60,359 nucleotides of DNA from contig PCCP01000033.1 in NCBI GenBank assembly GCA_002731775.1, positions 5,470 to 65,828 of the forward strand, in the 5' to 3' direction. Source of the DNA: Gammaproteobacteria bacterium (GTDB lineage: Bacteria; Pseudomonadota; Gammaproteobacteria; Pseudomonadales; Pseudohongiellaceae). The position numbers and the translations under genes are program-made. Of the stretch, positions 543 through 20,047 are shown piece after piece; position 1 is the stretch's first letter; each line of letters starts with the position of its first letter. The notes under the pieces were generated by a model. The model saw only the letters and a list, made by a program, of their open reading frames with translations, searched no databases and was not told where the DNA came from.

Positions 543-2015
543 GTGAATCGTCCAAGCGTAGATGACTATTTTAGTGATTGGAAACAACGGGAGGCGCTGG
601 TACAGGAAATGATTCCCGTGCTCGGTCGCCTGTTCAGTGCGCACAATGTCGGTGTTTATATATATGGCAGACCCCTGCATAACCGCTCGGTGACATTCAT
701 CATGAAATCCCATCGTTTCGTGCGCCAGATCGAGCGTAACGAGATGTCGGAATTTGAGACCCACGCGGTACTCATGGCGATGGCGAAACTCGACCTGTGG
801 CATGCCGAGATCGATCTCGGCAAACTCGCGGTTAATTTCATGGCGCTTCAGGAAGCTCAAGGTGATGATGCGTTGGGGGTGGATGAATTCGTCGCTAACG
901 AGTTGGGCTACTTGATTGGTGTTAATGAAAAGCCCATGGCCAAATCCCAGGACGTGGTGCTCTATGGCTTTGGTCGCATCGGTCGCCTAATGGCACGGTT
1001 ACTGGTGGAACGTACCAGTACTGGCGAGGTTATGCGCCTGAGGGCTATCGTGCTGCGACCGGGGCCGCCGGGTGACCTGGAAAAGCGCGCCAGTCTGTTC
1101 ACTGCCGATTCCGTACACGGTGCATTTCAGGGGACTCTGCGGGTCGATGAGGAGAACCGGAGTCTGATCGCCAACGGCAATGTAATCAAGGTAATCTATG
1201 CCAACAACCCGGATGAAATTGACTACACCGAATACGGCATCGACGACGCCCTTATCATCGACAATACCGGCAAATGGAGAGACCGGGAGGGTCTGTCTCT
1301 ACACCTGAAGTCGAAGGGGGTGGCAAAAGTCATCCTCACGGCGCCGGGCAAGGGTGACGTAAAAAATATAGTCTATGGCATCAATGACGATCAGATCGGC
1401 GACGACGACGCCATCCTTACCGCTGCATCCTGCACTACCAATGCCATAGCGCCAGTACTGAAGGTGGTCAATGATAAATACGGCATCGAGAAGGGACACA
1501 TCGAGTCGGTTCACGCTTATACCAATGACCAGAATCTGATCGATAACTACCACAAAGGCAGTCGCCGAGGTCGCAGTGCCGCGTTAAACATGGTGTTGAC
1601 GGAAACCGGAGCCGCCAAGGCAGTGGTGAAGGTGATACCAGAGCTGGCAGGTAAACTTACCGGCAACGCGGTGCGGGTACCGATCCCCAATGTATCCATG
1701 GCGATCATGAATCTGACCCTGAAAAGCGATACCACCAAAGATGAGATCAATGAGTTCCTGCGCGACATCGCCCTACACTCGAAGCTGCAGAATCAGATCA
1801 GCTACACCCAGTCCCCGGATGCGGTTTCCAGCGATTTTGTCGGCACCCGGGAAGCCTGTATCGTGGATTCCAATGCCACCATCGTCAACGGCAACCACTG
1901 TGTCCTGTACCTGTGGTATGACAATGAATTTGGCTACTGCTGCCAGGTTGCGCGCATGGTCTACAAGATGGCGGGGATAAGTTACAAGCAGTATCCAGTC
2001 GAAGAAACGGCTTAG
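543..2015 (+). CDS. gap: Glyceraldehyde-3-phosphate dehydrogenase, long form
   Basis: 490-residue member of the long GAPDH subfamily found in Pseudomonas and relatives, which carries an N-terminal extension of about 130 residues before the Rossmann domain. The NAD-binding motif YGFGRIGRL lies near residue 140 and the catalytic cysteine is in ASCTTNAIAPVL near residue 300; the C-terminal YDNEFGYC signature is intact. It catalyses the reversible NAD(P)-dependent oxidation of glyceraldehyde 3-phosphate to 1,3-bisphosphoglycerate in the cytoplasm. The start is GTG at 543, preceded five bases upstream by GGGG (534-537). The role of the N-terminal extension is not evident from sequence. apbE follows 16 bases downstream and may be cotranscribed. 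Confidence 0.93.
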   Translation: MNRPSVDDYFSDWKQREALVQEMIPVLGRLFSAHNVGVYIYGRPLHNRSVTFIMKSHRFVRQIERNEMSEFETHAVLMAMAKLDLWHAEIDLGKLAVNFMALQEAQGDDALGVDEFVANELGYLIGVNEKPMAKSQDVVLYGFGRIGRLMARLLVERTSTGEVMRLRAIVLRPGPPGDLEKRASLFTADSVHGAFQGTLRVDEENRSLIANGNVIKVIYANNPDEIDYTEYGIDDALIIDNTGKWRDREGLSLHLKSKGVAKVILTAPGKGDVKNIVYGINDDQIGDDDAILTAASCTTNAIAPVLKVVNDKYGIEKGHIESVHAYTNDQNLIDNYHKGSRRGRSAALNMVLTETGAAKAVVKVIPELAGKLTGNAVRVPIPNVSMAIMNLTLKSDTTKDEINEFLRDIALHSKLQNQISYTQSPDAVSSDFVGTREACIVDSNATIVNGNHCVLYLWYDNEFGYCCQVARMVYKMAGISYKQYPVEETA

Positions 2016-2031
2016 TCAAAGGCACCATAGC

Positions 2032-3090
2032 TTGTCAGATTTTTTGCGAAAGCATGCGTATCTAATAATTATCTCTTTGGTCCTGTTGTCCGGCGGCATC
2101 CTTCTGCTTGCCAGAACTTCGGGTGGAATTCAGCAGCTCAGTGGTTACACCATGGGTACCACGTATCACATTCAGATCGTGGACATGCCCACTGCACTTT
2201 CCAGCGAGGAAATCGCCACCGATGTCAGTGCCCTGCTGCTGGCATTGGACATCCGAATATTTTCTACCTACGCCGCCGATTCCGAGCTTTCCCGTTTCAA
2301 TAAGCAGCCGTTAAATCAGCCTTTTGCTGCATCTTCAGAGCTGCTGGCGGTACTGACGCTGGCACGGGAGATCGCCGAACTAAGCGACGGTGCCTTCGAT
2401 GTAACCGTGGGGGGGTTGGTTAATCTCTGGGGCTTCGGTCCTTCGCTACAGGTTCCCGGTGACGAGTTTCCTCAGCAGCGGGAAATCGATTCCCTGTTGC
2501 AGTCCGTGGGTTATGAGCTGCTGAAAATCGACCAGGCCCGCGCCGAGATCACCAGAGGGGCAGAGTTTTACGTGGATCTTAGTGGTATTGCCAAGGGCTA
2601 TGCAGTAGATCAACTGGCGGCCTATTTCGACGGGTTGGGGGTTGAGAATTACTTCCTGGAAATAGGCGGGGAATTGAAGATAAAGGGAGAAAAGCCCGGT
2701 GCTATCAGTTGGGTGCCGGCTATAGAAACTCCCCTGGACTCGACGCCGCAAATCTATGAAGTTTTTTCCACTAACGGCGCCGAGATCGCTGTCGCTGGTT
2801 CCGGCGATTATAGGAATTATTTCGAAGTGGATGGGCTGCGGTATTCACACGAGATCGACCCCAGAAACGGCAGGCCCGTTAGTCACAGCCTGGCGGCGGT
2901 GTACGTGATCGATGATTCTGCGGCGCGGGCCGATGCACTGGCAACGGCGTATATGGTGCTAGGGCTGGAAGCTGCACGTGAACTGGCGCAAGCCACGGCG
3001 CAGGCAGCATATTTTATTTATACCAGCGATGGCGTCGAGTTCCGCGACTATGTGACCCCGGAGTTCACCGACTACCTGCGAACGGATTAA
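2032..3090 (+). CDS. apbE: FAD:protein FMN transferase
   Basis: 352 residues with an N-terminal membrane anchor (about residues 8-28) and the ApbE fold: GYTMGTTYHIQ near residue 38, VTVGGLVNLWGFG, the DLSGIAKGYAVDQ segment, an EIGGE motif and a C-terminal GxxDAxATA-like stretch. ApbE enzymes attach FMN from FAD to Thr (or Ser) of periplasm-facing flavoproteins such as NqrB, NqrC and RnfG/D. No lipobox cysteine is seen, so it appears anchored by the hydrophobic segment. The start TTG at 2032 lacks a good ribosome-binding site. In related bacteria this gene sits at the end of the nqrABCDEF operon next to gap and mfd; here no nqr genes follow, and the next operon is nuo. Confidence 0.93.
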   Translation: MSDFLRKHAYLIIISLVLLSGGILLLARTSGGIQQLSGYTMGTTYHIQIVDMPTALSSEEIATDVSALLLALDIRIFSTYAADSELSRFNKQPLNQPFAASSELLAVLTLAREIAELSDGAFDVTVGGLVNLWGFGPSLQVPGDEFPQQREIDSLLQSVGYELLKIDQARAEITRGAEFYVDLSGIAKGYAVDQLAAYFDGLGVENYFLEIGGELKIKGEKPGAISWVPAIETPLDSTPQIYEVFSTNGAEIAVAGSGDYRNYFEVDGLRYSHEIDPRNGRPVSHSLAAVYVIDDSAARADALATAYMVLGLEAARELAQATAQAAYFIYTSDGVEFRDYVTPEFTDYLRTD

Positions 3091-3580
3091 GCGTACTATC
3101 ACCCGGGCCTTCGAGGGCCTGAGAGAACGTGATCAATCCCGGGCTTCAGCGCTAGCTGAAGGGTCGATCATTTCCTGTTCCCGAACCGACATTGCGCTGC
3201 CGCTGTAAACAATAAGCCACAATAAAAGCAGCAAGAATTCGTAACGCTGATCTTTTTTCGTCGATTTTCGAGCGCTTGTACCGAGGGAAATTGATGCTAA
3301 ACGGAGGGCTCATATCGGCTTGATTATCGCGGTCAAAATCACTCCCGTTTTCCCTTGCCAGGCAGGTCCGTCGAGGCACCCGAGGACGACAGTAATTGCG
3401 GTCGCGTAGTGGCGAAATCACTTGCCTTCCCATGGCTATAAGTGTACATTCCGTGCGCAATCCAGGACCGGCTTTTGCAGCCAAACGGCAGAGTAAAAAA
3501 GCAAGATCTAATGCCAGGTAAAACCAGCTATTACCAGAGCCGATTTTTGTTAGTCTGAAGGTCAATGTGTCGCCTGCAGC
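3091..3580. other. Gene-free leader between apbE and nuoA
   Basis: 490 bases without a convincing gene. The leftward open frame at 3152-3565 has no recognisable family features and an odd composition. A perfect 7-bp hairpin (CTTCAGC/GCTGAAG, 3144-3161) lies 50 bases after apbE but lacks a T tract. The nuo promoter must lie here, but I cannot place it with confidence. Confidence 0.6.
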
Positions 3581-4078
3581 ATGAGTACTCTAGTTATAAC
3601 CATGCCAGCTTCACGGAGTATTAGTAGCTTGGAAGGATCGGTAGAAATCATAGACGGCATGCGCCCATTTCTGTTTTACTTCGCGCTGGTGATGTTCGTC
3701 GTGCTGACCATGCTGGTACTCTCCTATTTTTTGGGGGAGCGGATAAATCGACCCGGTAAAAACCTGCCCTTCGAATCCGGTATCGTCTCCGTTGGCAGTT
3801 CACACTTTCGTATCTCCGTACAATTCTACCTGCCCGCAATCCTCTTCATCATCTTCGATCTCGAAGTGGTATTTCTGTTTGCCTGGGCGGTGGCGGTCAA
3901 GGAAGCGGGTTGGCCTGGTTTCGTCGAGATTTCTGTGTTCATTTTCATATTGATCGCAGCGTTGTTCTATTTATGGCGTATCCGCGCCCTCGATTGGCGG
4001 ACCGACATCCAGCGCCGCGAACTGAAATCTCTGAAGGGTCCTGGCGGTGTCACCAACAAGAAGGAATTCAAGCTATGA
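3581..4078 (+). CDS. nuoA: NADH-quinone oxidoreductase subunit A
   Basis: 165 residues with three predicted transmembrane helices and the NuoA signature: KNLPFESGI, then [20 protein letters not shown] with the conserved acidic residues of the membrane arm. NuoA is a small membrane subunit at the junction of the hydrophilic and membrane arms of complex I and forms part of the quinone chamber. The N terminus is about 20 residues longer than the core family; an internal ATG at the second methionine or at MRPFLF would give a shorter protein. First gene of the nuo operon; its stop overlaps the nuoB start (ATGA). Confidence 0.95.
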
Positions 4079-4775: not shown

Positions 4776-6554
4776 ATGCAAGTAGCCGAAAACACAGCCC
4801 AAACCAGCTCCCAGACCAGCTCCTTACTGGATCAAATGCGCCGGGAGTTCCCGCATCAGATCCTGGCAGAGCAGCAAAGTTGCGACGGTATTCCCACGCT
4901 GTGGGTCGATAAAGCCCATCTGAAATCGATGTTAAGGACACTGCAGTCGAAAACCAGCCCGGTATTCGAGATGCTCTATGATCTCACCGCCATCGACGAG
5001 CGCCTGCGGGTACATCGAGAAGGCCAGCCAGCCAGTGAATTCACCGTGGTTTATCACCTGATGTCGTTCAGCGGCAATTGTGATTTCCGCCTCAAGGTGC
5101 CATTAGCGGATGCCGACCTGACCCTGCCCAGCGTAATCGAGTTATGGCCCAGTGCCAATTGGTACGAGCGGGAAACCTGGGACATGTTCGGCATCAATTT
5201 CGAAGGCCATCCCAATCTCTATCGCATCCTGATGCCACCAAACTGGGAGGGCCACCCGCTGCGCAAGGAGCACCCGGCCCGGGCCACAGAGATGGAACCC
5301 TATTCCCTCGATGATGAGCAGGAAGTCGTGGAACAGGCGGCCCTGAAGTTTCGACCCGAAGACTGGGGTATGAAGCGGGAGTCGGAACATTCGGAATTCA
5401 TGTTTCTCAACATGGGCCCCAATCACCCCAGCGTACACGGCGCCTTTCGCATCGCCCTGCAACTCGACGGTGAGGTGGTGGTAGACGCGGTGCCCGATAT
5501 CGGCTACCACCATCGCGGCGCCGAAAAAATGGGTGAGCGGCAGACCTGGCATACCTTCATACCTTACACCGACAGGATCGATTATCTCGGCGGGGTGATG
5601 AATAACCTGCCCTATGTCATGGCGGTGGAAAAAATGGCCGGTATCGAGGTGCCAGAACGGGTCAAGGTAATTCGCGTCATGCTCTCGGAAATGTTTCGAG
5701 TCTGCAGCCATCTCTTGTTTTATGGCACCTTCGCCCAGGACGTGGGCCAGTTGTCACCGATCTTCTATATGTTCGTAGAGCGCGAGCGCATCTTCAATAT
5801 CATCGAATCCATCTGCGGCGCCAGGATGCATCCGGGGTGGTTCCGTATCGGCGGCGTAGCCGAGGACTTGCCCAGCGGCTGGGAGAAGAGAGTCCAGGAA
5901 TTGCTGGATTTTATGCCGGCGCGAATGGACGAGTACGACGGCATGGTACTGAACAATGGCATCCTCAAGCGCCGCACCCAGGGTGTCGGTGTGTTTGATA
6001 AAGAAGAAGCCTTTGCCTGGGCTCTCACCGGTTCAGGCCTGCGCGCGGCCGGTTTCGAATGGGATTACCGCAAGCAGCGACCCTACAGCGGTTATGAGAA
6101 TTTTGAATTCGATGTCCCCATTGCTATCAATGGAGATGTCTATGATCGCTGCGCCGTCAGAGTCGAGGAAATACGACAGAGTCTGCGCATCATAAAGCAG
6201 TGCCTGGACAACATGCCATCGGGACATTACAAGTCGGATCACCCTCTGACCACGCCACCGCGAAAAGAAAAAACCATGGAGGACATCGAGACCCTGATCG
6301 ATCATTTCCTGAGTGTGAGTTGGGGGCCGGTAATTCCGCCCAACGAGGTATCGGTGGGGGTCGAAGCGACCAAGGGCGTTAACAGTTATTACCTGATCAG
6401 CGATGGTGGCACCACCTCCTATCGCACGCGGATACGCACGCCGACCTTTCCCCACCTGCAGATGATTCCGAAGATGTGTCGTGGCTTCATGCTCGCCGAC
6501 CTGGTGGCCATTGTTGCTGGCATCGATTTTGTGATGGCGGATGTGGACCGATGA
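4776..6554 (+). CDS. nuoCD: NADH-quinone oxidoreductase fused subunits C and D
   Basis: 592 residues. Residues 1 to about 195 are the NuoC (30-kDa) domain, with [13 protein letters not shown] and PLRKEHP; from about residue 205 the NuoD (49-kDa) domain begins at [15 protein letters not shown] and runs to the C-terminal [11 protein letters not shown]. NuoD builds the quinone-binding pocket with NuoB. The C-D fusion is typical of gammaproteobacterial complex I. The 53 bases before the ATG are strikingly AT-rich and contain no Shine-Dalgarno sequence. The stop overlaps the start of nuoE (ATGA). Confidence 0.97.
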
Positions 6555-7075
6555 GTAAGCAGATTATCGCCAGTTCTAATCAGCGAGCACGGCAATTGAC
6601 GGCGGCCGAGATTGCCGAAATCGATCATGAATTGGGGCTGTATCCGGATAAGCAGGCGGTAGGCCTGGAAGCCTTGAAGATCGTGCAGAAACACCAGGGT
6701 TGGGTGTCCGACGAAAGTCTGCTGGCGATTGCCGGCTATCTGGACTTGCCGGTGGCGGGGCTTGAGGGCGTGGCGACATTTTTCAATCTGATATACAGGC
6801 GGCCGGTTGGGCGCAATGTGATGCTGTTTTGTGACAGTGTCAGTTGCTGGATCATGGGTTGTGAGGGTCTCAAGGCGCACATCAAGCAGGCGCTGGATAT
6901 CGATTTCGGTGAGACCAGTAAAGATGGCGACTTTACCCTGATTCCGGTTCCCTGCCTCGGTGACTGTGATCGGGCACCGGTGATGATGGTGGGGGAAGAT
7001 CTGCATAGGAATCTGACTGCAGAGAAGATCGACAAGATTATTCTGGATTATAGAAAAGGCGAGGGCAGCGAGTGA
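6551..7075 (+). CDS. nuoE: NADH-quinone oxidoreductase subunit E (2Fe-2S)
   Basis: 174 residues from the ATG at 6551, overlapping the nuoCD stop by four bases. The thioredoxin-like 2Fe-2S domain has its four ligands at C94 and C99 (CDSVSC) and C135 and C139 (CLGDC), binding cluster N1a. The segment [14 protein letters not shown] is typical of the family. NuoE docks on NuoF in the NADH-oxidising tip of complex I. Confidence 0.96.
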
Positions 7076-7091
7076 TCTTGCAGGAATTAAA

Positions 7092-8372
7092 ATGGTCAAC
7101 AATCCTTTAACAAAGAACATCGACATGTCCCGGCCGCCACTGGAAATCACCGCCTACGAGGCCAGCGATGGCTACCAGAGTGTGCAGCTGATCGCGCAGG
7201 GCTTGAGCCCTGAAGATGTGCTGCAGCGAGTGAAAGACTCCGGCCTCAAGGGCCGCGGTGGTGCTGGTTTTCCCACCGGTTTGAAGTGGAGCTTCGTGCC
7301 CCAGGGTGAGAATACGCCCCAGCAGAAATTCCTAGTGGTCAATGCCGATGAGATGGAACCCGGCACCTTCAAAGACAGGCTGCTGATGGAGGGTGACCCG
7401 CATTTGCTAATCGAAGGCGTGATCATCGCCGCCTATGCCATACGCGCCAGCAAGGCCTACATCTTTCTGCGTGGTGAGTATGTGGAGTCGGAGCGGTTGT
7501 TGCGACGGGCTATCGATGAGGCGGTTAACCGCGGCTTTCTCGGCAGGAATATATTGGGTAGCGGTTTCGATCTCGACGTCATCGTCCATACCAGCGCAGG
7601 TCGTTATATCTGCGGTGAAGAGACGGCACTGCTCAATGCCCTGGAGGGCAAGCGCGCCACCCCAAGGGCGAAACCACCATTTCCCCAGGTTAGTGGCTTG
7701 TGGGGCAAGCCGACCATCGTCAATAACGTTGAAACTCTCTGCAATTTGCCAGGCATCCTTAGTTACGGCGTGGACTGGTATCACGGGCTGACCCAGGGTG
7801 GCGATCATGGCACCAAATTATTCGGTGTCAGTGGCAAGGTGAAAACCCCCGGATGTTGGGAATTACCCCTGGGGTTACCGATTCGCGAACTGCTGGAAGG
7901 CTATGCCGGTGGCATGCAGGATGGTCTGCAGCTGCGTGGATTTTTACCCGGCGGGGGTTCCACGGACTTCATGCTACCGGAACACCTCGATACTGCCCTG
8001 GACTACGACGAGATCGCCAAGCAGGGCAGCAGGCTGGCCACCGGCACCATGATCGTGCTGGATGACAAGACCTGTCCAGTTGGCATGGTAGGCAATTTGA
8101 TGAAGTTCTTCGCCAAGGAATCCTGCGGCTTCTGCACGCCATGTCGGGATGGCCTGCCCTGGGTTGAGGAGATCTTCAGGGATTTTGAAGCTGGGCACGG
8201 CAATGAAAAAGATCTGCAAATTTTGCATGATCATGTCGATTATCTAGGGCCGGGGCGAACCTTTTGTGCGCTGGCACCTGGTGCAACGGCGCCACTGGGA
8301 AGCGGGCTTAAATATTTCAAGGAAGATTTCGACAAGCATATTAAGGAACAATGCTGCCCTTATAAGCATTAA
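7092..8372 (+). CDS. nuoF: NADH-quinone oxidoreductase subunit F (NADH and FMN binding)
   Basis: 426 residues. The glycine-rich NADH/FMN site GLKGRGGAGFPTGLKW, the FMN-site motif CGEETALLNALEG and the N3 4Fe-4S ligands C345, C348 and C351 (CGFCTPC) plus a fourth cysteine near 392 (RTFCALAPG) are all present. It oxidises NADH and feeds electrons into the iron-sulfur chain. The start ATG at 7092 follows AGGA with good spacing; an alternative internal ATG (MSRPP) lies 11 codons in. Confidence 0.97.
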   Translation: MVNNPLTKNIDMSRPPLEITAYEASDGYQSVQLIAQGLSPEDVLQRVKDSGLKGRGGAGFPTGLKWSFVPQGENTPQQKFLVVNADEMEPGTFKDRLLMEGDPHLLIEGVIIAAYAIRASKAYIFLRGEYVESERLLRRAIDEAVNRGFLGRNILGSGFDLDVIVHTSAGRYICGEETALLNALEGKRATPRAKPPFPQVSGLWGKPTIVNNVETLCNLPGILSYGVDWYHGLTQGGDHGTKLFGVSGKVKTPGCWELPLGLPIRELLEGYAGGMQDGLQLRGFLPGGGSTDFMLPEHLDTALDYDEIAKQGSRLATGTMIVLDDKTCPVGMVGNLMKFFAKESCGFCTPCRDGLPWVEEIFRDFEAGHGNEKDLQILHDHVDYLGPGRTFCALAPGATAPLGSGLKYFKEDFDKHIKEQCCPYKH

Positions 8373-16903: not shown

Positions 16904-18367
16904 ATGACAATGACTCTAGCCGACTTAGTTCCTTTACTGCCACTGCTTATCGTCAGCTCCACCGCGGTGCTGCTGATGCTGCAGATTGGAATTCGTCGCA
17001 GCCATAAAGTGACTGTGGTGATCGCATTAAGCGGGCTGTTATTAGCCACCGTGGTAGCAGTGCTGATGATGCCTACAATGAACCAGCAGCTAACACCGCT
17101 TTTGATCATAGATCAATACAGTCTGTTCTTCACCGCAGTCTGCTGTGCCGCCGCTATGGTCATCGTCATTCTTAGTTATCCTTATCTGTCGAGGCTGGAC
17201 GATGACAAGGATGAGTATTACCTGCTGCTGGTCATCGCCACGGTGGGCGCAATCGTCATGGTCAGCAGCAATCATTTCGTCAGCACCATTTTGGGACTGG
17301 AAACACTGAGCATGTCCCTGTATGGCATGGTGGCGTATCCGCTACACAGCAAAGAGTCGGCAAAGTATCCCCTCGAAGCGGCGGTGAAGTACCTGGTACT
17401 ATCCGCGGTTTCTTCCAGCTTTATGTTGTTTGGCATGGCGCTGATTTACGCCCAGACCGGGACCCTGGCATTCTCCAGCCTAGACAGTGATGCCGCCGTC
17501 AGTCTCAGTGACAGCTATGCGATCGTGGGCGTGCTGCTATTAATTTCGGGCATGGCCTTTAAATTATCCCTGGCCCCATTCCACATGTGGACCCCGGACG
17601 TGTATGAGGGTTCGCCGCTGCCGGCGACGGCCTATCTGGCAACGATAGGCAAGACGGCGATGTTCGTGGTGCTGCTACGGTTCGTGATAGTAACGGAAGC
17701 GCTACGTTACGAAGCCGTGATGATCGTGTTCTCATTGATTGCTGTGCTCTCCATTCTCGCCGGCAATGTCCTGGCATTATTACAGAATAGCCTGAAGCGC
17801 ATCCTCGCCTACTCCTCGATTGCGCACATGGGCTATCTGATCATCGCGGTGATAGCGAGTTATTTTGCCACCAGCACAATCAGCATAGAGGCAGTGACTT
17901 TTTATTTATTGGCCTATATGATCATGTCCCTCGGGGCCTTCGGGGTGGCTTCGGTGGTCTCATCAAGCGAGAAGGAATTCGATCTGGTCTCGGATTATCA
18001 GGGCTTGTTCTGGCGCGACCCCTGGCTTGCCCTCATCTTCACTGGGATGCTGTTGTCCCTGGCGGGGATTCCGCTCACGATCGGGTTTATCGGAAAATTC
18101 TATCTGTTCTTCGCCGGTGTAGAGTCCGCCTTGTGGGTGCTGTTACTGGTGCTGGTAGTTGGCAGTGGCATCGGCCTGTTCTACTATTTAAGAATCGTTT
18201 ATCACTTGTTGTTGCCGGCGCCAACGCGTCCACAATTTTCCAGTGCCGCTAACGAAAACCTGGGCGCCTATGGTGTGCTCACCATCCTGTTCCTGCTGCT
18301 GCTATTGCTGGGTGTTTATCCCGCGCGGCTCATGACCTTGATCGAAACCGTTGCTGCCTTCATCTAA
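16904..18367 (+). CDS. nuoN: NADH-quinone oxidoreductase subunit N (antiporter-like)
   Basis: 487 residues. GLETLSMSLYGMVAY, FKLSLAPFHMWTPDVYEGSP and LKRILAYSSIAHMGY are characteristic of NuoN, the proximal antiporter-like subunit. Two bases separate it from nuoM. Last gene of the canonical operon; a weak GC-rich hairpin with a short T run (18381-18414) follows. Confidence 0.96.
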   Translation: MTMTLADLVPLLPLLIVSSTAVLLMLQIGIRRSHKVTVVIALSGLLLATVVAVLMMPTMNQQLTPLLIIDQYSLFFTAVCCAAAMVIVILSYPYLSRLDDDKDEYYLLLVIATVGAIVMVSSNHFVSTILGLETLSMSLYGMVAYPLHSKESAKYPLEAAVKYLVLSAVSSSFMLFGMALIYAQTGTLAFSSLDSDAAVSLSDSYAIVGVLLLISGMAFKLSLAPFHMWTPDVYEGSPLPATAYLATIGKTAMFVVLLRFVIVTEALRYEAVMIVFSLIAVLSILAGNVLALLQNSLKRILAYSSIAHMGYLIIAVIASYFATSTISIEAVTFYLLAYMIMSLGAFGVASVVSSSEKEFDLVSDYQGLFWRDPWLALIFTGMLLSLAGIPLTIGFIGKFYLFFAGVESALWVLLLVLVVGSGIGLFYYLRIVYHLLLPAPTRPQFSSAANENLGAYGVLTILFLLLLLLGVYPARLMTLIETVAAFI

Positions 18368-18458
18368 TGCCAGCCTGTTGTCGGCATAAAGCCGCGGCCG
18401 GAGCCGATTAATTTTCGTTGTATGGAATCTAGCGCGCTATTGCCTTATCGCCACTGAC

Positions 18459-18809
18459 ATGAAGCTTTCTGCACAAACATACGGCCGACGTTACCTGCTT
18501 TCGCTTGCTCTCCTGGCTGTCGTAATTATGCTATTGGCGGGACTCAACTGGCTCAGTGCGAGCGGGGTACTGGCAAGCAAACTAGAATTCGATCGACGTA
18601 ATCTGCCGCAATTACTCCCGGGCTTGAACTATGACAATGATTTGCTGCAGGACATCCTGGGGATCAATTGGCAAACCCTATCTGCGGATAATGAATATGA
18701 CCAGTTTGTCGGTGCGTCCATCACACCGAAGACGGTCTCGGATCGTATCTATGATGCTCTGGTGTTTTTCCAGTCCAATCGGATCGCACTGATGGTCGGT
18801 GGTAGTTGA
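18459..18809 (+). CDS. Miniature RnfG-like protein (anchor plus FMN-attachment region)
   Basis: 116 residues. A single transmembrane helix (about 12-32) is followed by LPQLLPGLNYDNDLL (49-63), which resembles the segment just after the anchor in RnfG, and then directly by YDQFVGASITPKTV (80-93) and a helix ALVFFQSNR, which resemble the C-terminal flavin-attachment region of RnfG (DQFTGATITPRAV in E. coli RsxG). The roughly 80-100 residues that normally separate these blocks are missing, and the acceptor Thr of GAT is Ser87. It thus looks like an internal-deletion derivative of an electron-transport-complex G subunit, about half the normal length. The frame is intact, so it may be expressed. 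No rnf genes lie nearby; apbE is at the other end of the nuo operon. Function is not known; it could be a decaying remnant. Confidence 0.6.
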   Translation: MKLSAQTYGRRYLLSLALLAVVIMLLAGLNWLSASGVLASKLEFDRRNLPQLLPGLNYDNDLLQDILGINWQTLSADNEYDQFVGASITPKTVSDRIYDALVFFQSNRIALMVGGS

Positions 18810-18851
18810 GGCGAACATGGCAAGCCGGCGGTAGAATGAAACGTTGCCGCT

Positions 18852-18876
18852 GGTGTGGAAATTAAACACCGCTTTT
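18852..18876 (+). terminator. Weak possible terminator after the RnfG-like gene
   Basis: GGTGT (18852-18856) and ACACC (18866-18870) can pair and are followed by GCTTTT. The stem is only 5 bp, so this is a weak call. A second, longer imperfect hairpin (18877-18905, CGCAC/GTGCG outer stem) follows without a T run. Confidence 0.25.
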
Positions 18877-19006
18877 CGCACCACGTCGATTCGACGAGTC
18901 GTGCGGCGGCCCACGGTGATAGCGCGACACAGATCGCTGCCTGTTGGTATTCGCGAGTAATCAGATTATTATGGGCGCGGCGTGATTTGGCAGCACTGGA
19001 GAACGA

Positions 19007-20047
19007 ATGCCAGCTAGTAAGGTCTCTGTAATTGGTGGTGGCAGCTTTGGCACTGTACTAGCCAATATTGCCGCCCAGAATGGCCACGATGTCATGTTCT
19101 GGATGCGCAGTGCGCGGGTGATTGACGACGTCAACCGGCAGCACGAAAATCCACAGTATTTACCAGGCTATGAGCTCCACCCGAAGGTCATTGCCAGCGC
19201 CGATATGGGGACCGCCGTCGCCGGCAGCGATATCATTTTTGTCGCCGTCCCCAGTTCCTCGTTCCGGCAGGTAGTAAATAGCGTGGCAGCCCATGTGCCC
19301 GAGCGAGCCATGCTGGTCAGTACCACCAAGGGTATCGAACCCGGCACATTCAAGCTAATGAGTGAGATCCTCACCGAAGAGTTGCCCCGGGCGAGGGTTG
19401 GTGTGTTGAGCGGACCAAACCTGGCCAAGGAAATCGCCAGCAAACATCTCACTGGCACAGTGATAGCCAGCAGTCATGATGCCGTCAGGGAGTTGGTCAG
19501 GGATGTTCTGAAATCGGAATTTTTCAAGGTCTATACAAATGATGATATGTTTGGGGTTGAACTGGGCGGGTCCCTGAAGAATATTTACGCGATCATTGCC
19601 GGTGCCGCCGTCGCCATAGGCATGGGTCACAACACTAATAGCATGCTGGTGACTAGGTCTTTGGCCGAGATGGCCAGATTTGGTCGTGAACTGGGTGCCG
19701 ACCCCATGACTTTTCTGGGGCTGTCCGGCGTCGGGGATCTCGTCGTCACCTGTTCCAGCGCGTTGAGTCGTAACTACCGTATTGGCTTCGCCTTGGGGCA
19801 AGGTAAATCCGTAGAAGAGGCTGCCGCCGAAGTCGGTCAGGTGGCAGAAGGCATCAATACAGTTAAACTGGTGGTGGAGAGAGCGAACGAACTCGGTGTC
19901 TACATGCCTCTAGCTAGCGCGCTGTATCAGGTTATCTATAAAGGGCAATCGATCAGCAATATAATCTCCTCCTTGATGTTGAGCGAACGGAATTTGGATG
20001 TGGAATTCGCCGCTCCAGAAGAGAAAATACTAAGTCGTGAGGAATAG
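19007..20047 (+). CDS. gpsA: Glycerol-3-phosphate dehydrogenase (NAD(P)+)
   Basis: 346 residues. The N-terminal dinucleotide-binding motif GGGSFGTVLANI, the STTKGIE segment, SGPNLAKEIA and the catalytic-lysine motif GGSLKNIYAI identify GpsA, which reduces dihydroxyacetone phosphate to sn-glycerol 3-phosphate for phospholipid synthesis. GGAG lies five bases before the ATG. The next gene starts two bases after the stop, as in Pseudomonas, where a DUF4389 gene also follows gpsA. Confidence 0.96.
   Translation: MPASKVSVIGGGSFGTVLANIAAQNGHDVMFWMRSARVIDDVNRQHENPQYLPGYELHPKVIASADMGTAVAGSDIIFVAVPSSSFRQVVNSVAAHVPERAMLVSTTKGIEPGTFKLMSEILTEELPRARVGVLSGPNLAKEIASKHLTGTVIASSHDAVRELVRDVLKSEFFKVYTNDDMFGVELGGSLKNIYAIIAGAAVAIGMGHNTNSMLVTRSLAEMARFGRELGADPMTFLGLSGVGDLVVTCSSALSRNYRIGFALGQGKSVEEAAAEVGQVAEGINTVKLVVERANELGVYMPLASALYQVIYKGQSISNIISSLMLSERNLDVEFAAPEEKILSREE

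Follow-up and report, generated by a model that had tools for sequence, protein, structure and literature searches.

A 116-aa open reading frame between nuoN and gpsA in a Pseudohongiellaceae genome is probably an internally deleted, displaced rnfG

In the Rnf complex, a [2Fe-2S] cluster sits in the membrane between RnfA and RnfE, and RnfG acts as a shuttle between this cluster and RnfD, as described in the available portion of PMC12174285. The metal-binding cysteines of the C. tetanomorphum complex are Cys25 with Cys113 and Cys26 with Cys109, with one iron modelled (available portion of PMC9588780), and the available portions of both papers treat the RnfA and RnfE cysteines as invariant and the core cofactors as strictly conserved across Rnf and Nqr (PMC9588780, PMC12174285). 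In NqrC, residues 172-176 form a loop of the isoalloxazine pocket (PMC12174285, same portion). Covalent flavin attachment follows the motif D-x-x-[S/T]-G-A-[S/T]; according to the part of PMC12052999 available, 7 residues can suffice for flavinylation by ApbE, and Ser is accepted with a degree of flavinylation 10-55% lower.

We analyzed a stretch of 60,359 nucleotides (the window) from a draft metagenome-assembled genome of the family Pseudohongiellaceae (126 contigs, 90% complete; here G000). Downstream of a nuo gene cluster, it carries a short rnfG-like open reading frame (ORF) of 116 aa (Table 1), a genuine reading frame with an ATG start and a TGA stop; 91 bases separate it from the nuoN stop upstream and 197 bases from gpsA downstream. 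The names nuo, gpsA, gap, sthA, nqr and methyltransferase are readings of the sequence unless a family search or a record is cited. ORF call and alignments agree with the earlier note that this is an intact 116-codon gene in which the anchor and post-anchor segment of RnfG are joined to its C-terminal flavin-site region. The N-terminal anchor is a hydrophobic stretch, modelled as a helix over residues 3-52 with pLDDT values of 93-94 at residues 11-30, while the acceptor region reads D81-Q-F-V-G-A-S87. No clear Shine-Dalgarno sequence precedes the ATG, which is uninformative about the short ORF because two intact relatives likewise lack a strong one. A scan for promoters and terminators returned two weak promoter-like sites (0.8 expected) and no terminators.

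Table 1. Features of the window that bear on the short ORF (window positions).
Feature	Coordinates	Strand	Basis
Truncated rnfG ORF, 116 aa	18459..18809	+	ORF call, RnfG model matches, alignment to full-length relatives
N-terminal remainder (residues 1-62) with the anchor helix and the segment behind it to NYDNDL	18459..18644	+	Alignment; helix 3-52 in model
C-terminal remainder (residues 63-116) with the DQFVGAS site (Ser87) and the terminal helix	18645..18806	+	Alignment
Deletion junction, placed to within a few codons	18642..18650	+	Alignment to G044 copy
Stretch without counterpart in G056, short ORF included	18377..18941	+	DNA alignment
nuoN, upstream neighbor (also in genus copies with upstream side read)	16904..18367	+	Sequence reading
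gpsA, downstream neighbor (also in genus copies read)	19007..20047	+	Sequence reading
apbE (flavin transferase), upstream of nuoA	2032..3090	+	PF02424, 255 bits

Profile searches, which the earlier note had proposed, gave a divided answer. Two RnfG models matched the C-terminus of the short ORF below their cut-offs: NF002519 (RsxG/RnfG) over residues 71-110 with E 2.5e-8 and 33.8 bits (cut-off 178), and TIGR01947 (RnfG) with E 1.8e-5 and 24.9 bits (cut-off 102), a cut-off that the full-length genus copies also miss (best 85.5 bits). A Pfam search that included FMN_bind (PF04205) returned no match up to E 10, and a PF04205 search of the window genome found three other places, with frames of 679, 436 and 178 aa, and not the short ORF. 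An FMN_bind protein with a 435-aa frame is encoded at 6269-7576 of locus L113 (G000, contig C75), beside genes that we take to be phosphonate degradation genes from their appearance.

A second apbE lies on a different contig of the window genome. At 543-3581 the window reads gap-apbE-nuo, with nqr and sthA both absent there; several loci of relatives (L109, L120-L127) have the order gap-(nqrABCDEF)-apbE-sthA-nuo.

The window genome carries rnfA-B-C-D-E-nth on another contig, with rnfG absent between rnfD and rnfE. The two genes are adjacent, leaving no space for rnfG, in 22 rnf loci of the genus, and no RnfG match was found within 29 genus rnf loci, some of them cut by contig ends. An RnfG match does lie inside the rnf locus in the family outgroups G345 and G325, in 17 controls of the same order, and in E. 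coli.

Among the 84 genus genomes searched, rnfG-like matches occurred in 37, and 28 of the 84 hold open full-length copies (at least 213 aa, stop to stop). G102 (cut by a contig edge), G003 (in-frame stop) and G114 (frameshift) were left out of this intact count, and five genomes had stops or fragments only (G007, G016, G048, G050 and G104). Where the locus could be read, nuoN and gpsA flank the genus copies, and in many relatives a SAM-methyltransferase-like gene separates rnfG from gpsA. We looked for a remnant of this gene between the short ORF and gpsA and found only pieces at chance level, so a relict methyltransferase was rejected. A contig scan yielded 31 loci with titles naming Gammaproteobacteria, Proteobacteria, Pseudomonadales, Pseudohongiella or SAR86-cluster sequences, many of them the same contigs as those of the genus genomes; nuoN and gpsA flank the gene in 30 of the 31, and L052 starts inside the gene. 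The full-length displaced protein has 46 invariant columns of 208 (25 rows), and this strong conservation argues that it still does something.

None of these 84 genomes carries a second 116-aa form, which leaves the window genome as sole carrier. The search for homologs of the same short form that the earlier note had called for returned full-length copies at the same position instead, and a new short protein family was rejected on this ground.

Open displaced rnfG and orthologous RnfD occur together: across the 84 genomes, 27 have both, 14 RnfD only, one rnfG only (G041) and 42 neither (Fisher p 1.1e-10, kinship not corrected). For the 48 genomes at least 90% complete, the corresponding numbers are 18, 8, 1 and 21 (Fisher 3.8e-6, kinship again not corrected). 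G041 was scored as lacking orthologous RnfD since its match belongs to a divergent second Rnf (35%). Among the 14 genomes with RnfD and no open rnfG, the nuoN-gpsA locus is only partly seen in G006, G032, G051, G101, G111 and G116, and G102 ends at a contig edge. In G041 and G046, the second divergent Rnf locus (L166, L167) encodes an RnfG/NqrC-like subunit of its own, placed between rnfD and rnfE.

In a tree, the displaced copies and RnfG grouped apart from NqrC with support of 100, the displaced group itself having 79. The A2 profile built from full-length relatives found the PDB RnfG chain 8rb9_G (E 1.5e-13, aligned to residues 56-218), and a Foldseek search with the model of the full-length G044 copy ranked PDB RnfG chains 1-5 (TM about 0.43-0.55), followed by NqrC chains. 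Tree and fold ranking led us to reject an origin from NqrC. The short form was left out of the tree; it aligns to full-length copies within it, and its common descent with RnfG is supported through them. From these sequence comparisons, we conclude that the gene beside nuo is a displaced rnfG.

We also considered an accessory of complex I, which was rejected because NuoN matches occur in 79 of 84 genomes vs open rnfG in 28, because rnfG tracks RnfD, and because G127, of a sister genus, has rnfG without nuo. The rnfG copy of G127 lies between sthA and gpsA (nqr-apbE-sthA-rnfG-gpsA, no nuo); it is the only match of the A1 profile (E 1e-20) among the six genomes listed for this sister genus (g38). 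G127 has a full RnfD match, and in G264 (also g38), where the rnf locus is reduced, the RnfD match is split. The nuo neighborhood is probably inherited and incidental, with the gene tracking the Rnf operon. The window genome holds two more NuoN-like genes of 45% identity (contig C44, 929-2371, and contig C23, 12106-13530), which are either part of a second complex I-like set or on foreign contigs in the assembly.

Aligned to the G044 copy, the short ORF matches at both ends, leaves G044 residues 54-154 (about 101 codons) unmatched and keeps the frame, which bears out the earlier claim that the middle of the FMN-binding domain is missing. The AlphaFold model of the G044 copy (pLDDT 80.5, pTM 0.76) places all strands within residues 54-142, so that every predicted beta-strand of the full-length protein falls inside the missing 54-154 segment. 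The model of the short form, a check that the earlier note had suggested, has no strand, one long helix at residues 3-52, pLDDT 64.7 and pTM 0.32. No direct or inverted repeat of at least 12 bases was found in window positions 18300-19050. Deletion between short repeats, with TGCNGGA on both sides, was rejected: of 20 copies (3 of the 23 were skipped), one has the heptamer on each side, and there is no repeat of at least 12 bases in the window stretch.

The acceptor site of the short ORF departs from the flavinylation motif, with Val at -3. The earlier note had singled out GAS and Val as odd, and the residues are as it described; as a peculiarity of the short form, the pair does not stand. VGAS occurs in 22 of 23 genus copies (the exception is VDAS, in G023) and in 24 of 25 rows of the A2 alignment of named records, which overlap with the 23 copies and contain no TGAT or PGLG. 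Since nearly all genus copies share VGAS, GAS and Val are ancestral and no hallmark of the short form. Val at -3 is also weak evidence on flavinylation because the in-operon RnfG of G080 and the NqrC of G042 have Ala there; G345 and G325 have Val. The ETPGLG loop, which we place at the NqrC pocket loop 172-176, is present in 15 of 15 canonical RnfG and 4 of 4 NqrC sequences, in none of 13 displaced full-length copies, and is gone from the short form. The row of L064 and the nqrC row of G055 were used for this count only, as their printed acceptor motif comes from another stretch.

How old is the deletion? Among relatives with an assembled locus, G056 (NuoN 89%, GpsA 91% identity) is the closest, and it has no rnfG there: its nuoN-gpsA gap is 108 bases, and its DNA aligns to window positions 17900-18376 and 18942-19400 with nothing in between. 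G116 is as close (RnfD 97%), and its contig ends inside nuoN, so it was not counted as a loss. The retained 50-residue C-terminal block is 64-84% identical to the 23 genus copies, with a mean of 0.726, vs a mean of 0.731 (sd 0.051) in 201 other pairs of like NuoN divergence; the N-terminal block gives 0.36 vs 0.36 in the comparison pairs. Neutral simulation from the present sequence brought C-block identity to 0.54 at a distance d of 0.15 and to 0.50 at 0.19. For nuoL, nuoM, nuoN and gpsA, dS between the window genome and G056 is 0.32-0.41, half of which is 0.16-0.2; neutral change over the time since these two genomes split would thus leave an identity of about 0.50-0.54. With a single genome to go by, a C-block that has changed no more than in intact copies fits two histories: a deletion far more recent than the split from G056, or a remnant that is still under constraint. 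The undecayed C-block is the main result against calling the short ORF dead.

The Rnf complex of the genus is itself unusual. At the readable positions of the 29 genus rnf loci, the [2Fe-2S] ligand Cys is found in 0 of 28 RnfA copies at both positions and in 0 of 27 and 0 of 26 RnfE copies, in contrast with 17 of 17 RnfA and 18 of 18 RnfE controls and E. coli. G091 was dropped from the RnfA control (its match was RnfE), and the first position of G325 RnfA was misaligned and went unused. A Cys often stands one or two residues before the second ligand position of genus RnfE and could be a replacement ligand. The outgroup G345 keeps one ligand Cys in each of RnfA and RnfE, reads VGAT and has rnfG in the operon, which suggests that cluster loss and Val arose before the displacement. 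RnfD retains the acceptor Thr, but 24 of 28 genus copies have no [S/T] at -3; G012, G112, G055 and G101 still have it, as do 18 of 18 controls.

Other sites of the complex persist. RnfB has 13-16 Cys in 23 of the 24 genus loci checked; the RnfB of G101 is a 41-residue match with 5 Cys and a stop inside. RnfC of the window genome keeps its iron-sulfur Cys motifs (CIRCGFCAEACP and CIECGACAYVCP), and its rnfA-E frames are open. Between this genome and G056, dN/dS is 0.09 for rnfA, 0.15 for rnfB, 0.25 for rnfC, 0.16 for rnfD and 0.36 for rnfE, the loosest; nuoL, nuoM and nuoN give 0.06-0.18. Purifying selection together with the kept RnfB and RnfC sites suggests that the operon probably still works. 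Three genomes have the nuoN-gpsA locus without rnfG (G056, G025 and G055) and two have damaged copies (G050 and G104), and all five have RnfA, RnfB and RnfD matches without a stop, so that Rnf seems to persist where RnfG disappears. Damage or divergence does appear in some of the rnf loci without rnfG: besides the RnfB stop in G101, rnfC of G051 lies in two frames and RnfD of G055 has 32-33% identity.

Some genus loci have rnfB alone beside nth (L146, L158, L160, L161 and L162, where L162 ends before nth is reached), and in L148, L156 and L157 an rnfC fragment accompanies rnfB and nth; these represent a graded erosion of Rnf. For rnfA-D of the window genome (contig C124, L112 3101-7745) compared with G116 and G056, dS is 0.05-0.17 vs 0.32-0.41 for nuo, and exchange of the rnf cassette between species is a possible explanation for these low sequence distances.

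Taken together, the comparisons make it highly probable that the short ORF is a recent derivative of the displaced rnfG by in-frame internal deletion, most likely without a working protein. The sequences show that relatives have the gene at full length in this position, that some 100 codons over the predicted FMN-domain strands are gone here, that G056 has none of the gene, and that the genus keeps an rnfG-less rnfABCDE-nth elsewhere. With RnfA and RnfE lacking the four intramembrane [2Fe-2S] cysteines and displaced RnfG lacking the flavin-pocket residues, a periplasmic RnfG shuttle would have no cluster as electron source. RnfG may have become dispensable, left the operon and then been eliminated repeatedly, through a frameshift, a stop codon, deletion of the whole gene or, as here, deletion of its interior; missing cluster and missing pocket together suggest that the shuttle job was probably lost, which would explain the repeated loss. 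The Rnf operon would then perhaps be a membrane-tethered cytoplasmic electron relay. More broadly, and with slightly less than an even chance of being right in our estimation, Pseudohongiellaceae-type bacteria may have a cluster-less, non-pumping Rnf that lost the [2Fe-2S] site, the RnfG pocket and mostly the RnfD -3 residue, moved rnfG out of the operon and survives as an NAD(P)H-RnfC-RnfB relay that is tethered to the membrane and passes no electrons across it; the 116-aa ORF would then capture a late stage of this process, in which RnfG disappears.

Reading the ORF as a relic is favored by the full-length gene in 28 of 84 genomes and by seven broken or fragmentary copies (G003, G007, G016, G048, G050, G104 and G114). 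Together with the gene-less G056, these uphold the term deletion remnant in the earlier note, although its word "fixed" goes too far for a form seen in one metagenome-assembled genome. Against a relic stand the open frame and the undecayed C-block, the presence of ApbE, and the 7 residues that may suffice for flavinylation (PMC12052999, portion available). The scheme behind it is challenged by G041, which has an open displaced rnfG and a divergent Rnf without orthologous RnfD, by the strong conservation of full-length displaced RnfG, and by the unhealthy-looking or divergent rnf loci of G101, G051 and G055. The same open frame and undecayed remnant could speak for a working minimal membrane flavin carrier, as the earlier note had proposed, consisting of an anchor and a flavinylation peptide with Ser87 modified by the window-encoded ApbE. 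The apbE genes in the window and elsewhere in the genome, the short and Ser-tolerant ApbE motif (PMC12052999, same portion), and control RnfG and NqrC sites without [S/T] at -3 fit such a carrier. We consider it very unlikely, as the sheet and pocket are gone and the model (pLDDT 64.7, pTM 0.32) has no strand, ETPGLG is missing from even the full-length relatives (13 of 13), no other of the 84 genomes has the short form, and G056 lacks the gene altogether.

A remnant kept as a non-flavin structural peptide, with anchor and C-terminal helices docking on the cluster-less Rnf core, also seems very improbable to us. Both termini are in frame and change no faster than in intact copies, rnfA-E are open in the window genome, and the transmembrane helix of C. 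tetanomorphum RnfG is described in a four-helix bundle with RnfA, RnfB and RnfE helices (PMC9588780, portion available). However, G056 keeps rnfA-E at low dN/dS with no rnfG remnant at the locus, and G025 and G055 have rnf genes (RnfD divergent in G055) and no rnfG match there. An assembly artefact, in which the organism has the full-length gene and the deletion is a mis-assembly, would suit a 126-contig, 90% complete draft and a form present in one genome only; we hold it to be most improbable given the kept frame, the lack of a repeat of at least 12 bases in 18300-19050, and a near relative without the locus content.

The value of the short ORF, under the preferred reading as a deletion derivative, seems to lie in pointing to an apparently cluster-less Rnf in the genus. 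In the titles and abstract starts of open-licence papers among the matches listed, there was no report of an Rnf without the intramembrane [2Fe-2S] site. A genus with rnfABCDE lacking the cluster site, and often RnfG, offers a test case for an Rnf unable to pass electrons across the membrane; if true, this would allow ion pumping to be told apart from a redox role in the cytoplasm and be of interest to bioenergeticists.

Compared with known systems, the short form resembles RnfG/RsxG in its N-terminal anchor helix, the DN-containing segment behind the anchor, and the DQF-x-GA-[ST]-xTP site with terminal helix; it differs in lacking the FMN-domain strands, in reading VGAS, and in lying between nuoN and gpsA outside the rnf operon. 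The displaced full-length RnfG-like protein of the genus shares this locus and VGAS, and differs in having at least 213 aa, vs about 101 codons missing in the short form. NqrC of Na+-NQR is alike in fold class and FMN shuttle role, but forms a separate tree group, and the four NqrC sequences examined keep ETPGLG. Finally, relative to canonical Rnf (A. vinelandii 8ahx, C. tetanomorphum 7zc6), subunits A-E are recognizable, with A, D and E identified by PDB matches, and in the window genome RnfB retains its Cys and RnfC its Cys motifs, whereas RnfA and RnfE of the genus have no Cys at the four ligand positions, the RnfD -3 residue is mostly lost, and the operon is without rnfG.
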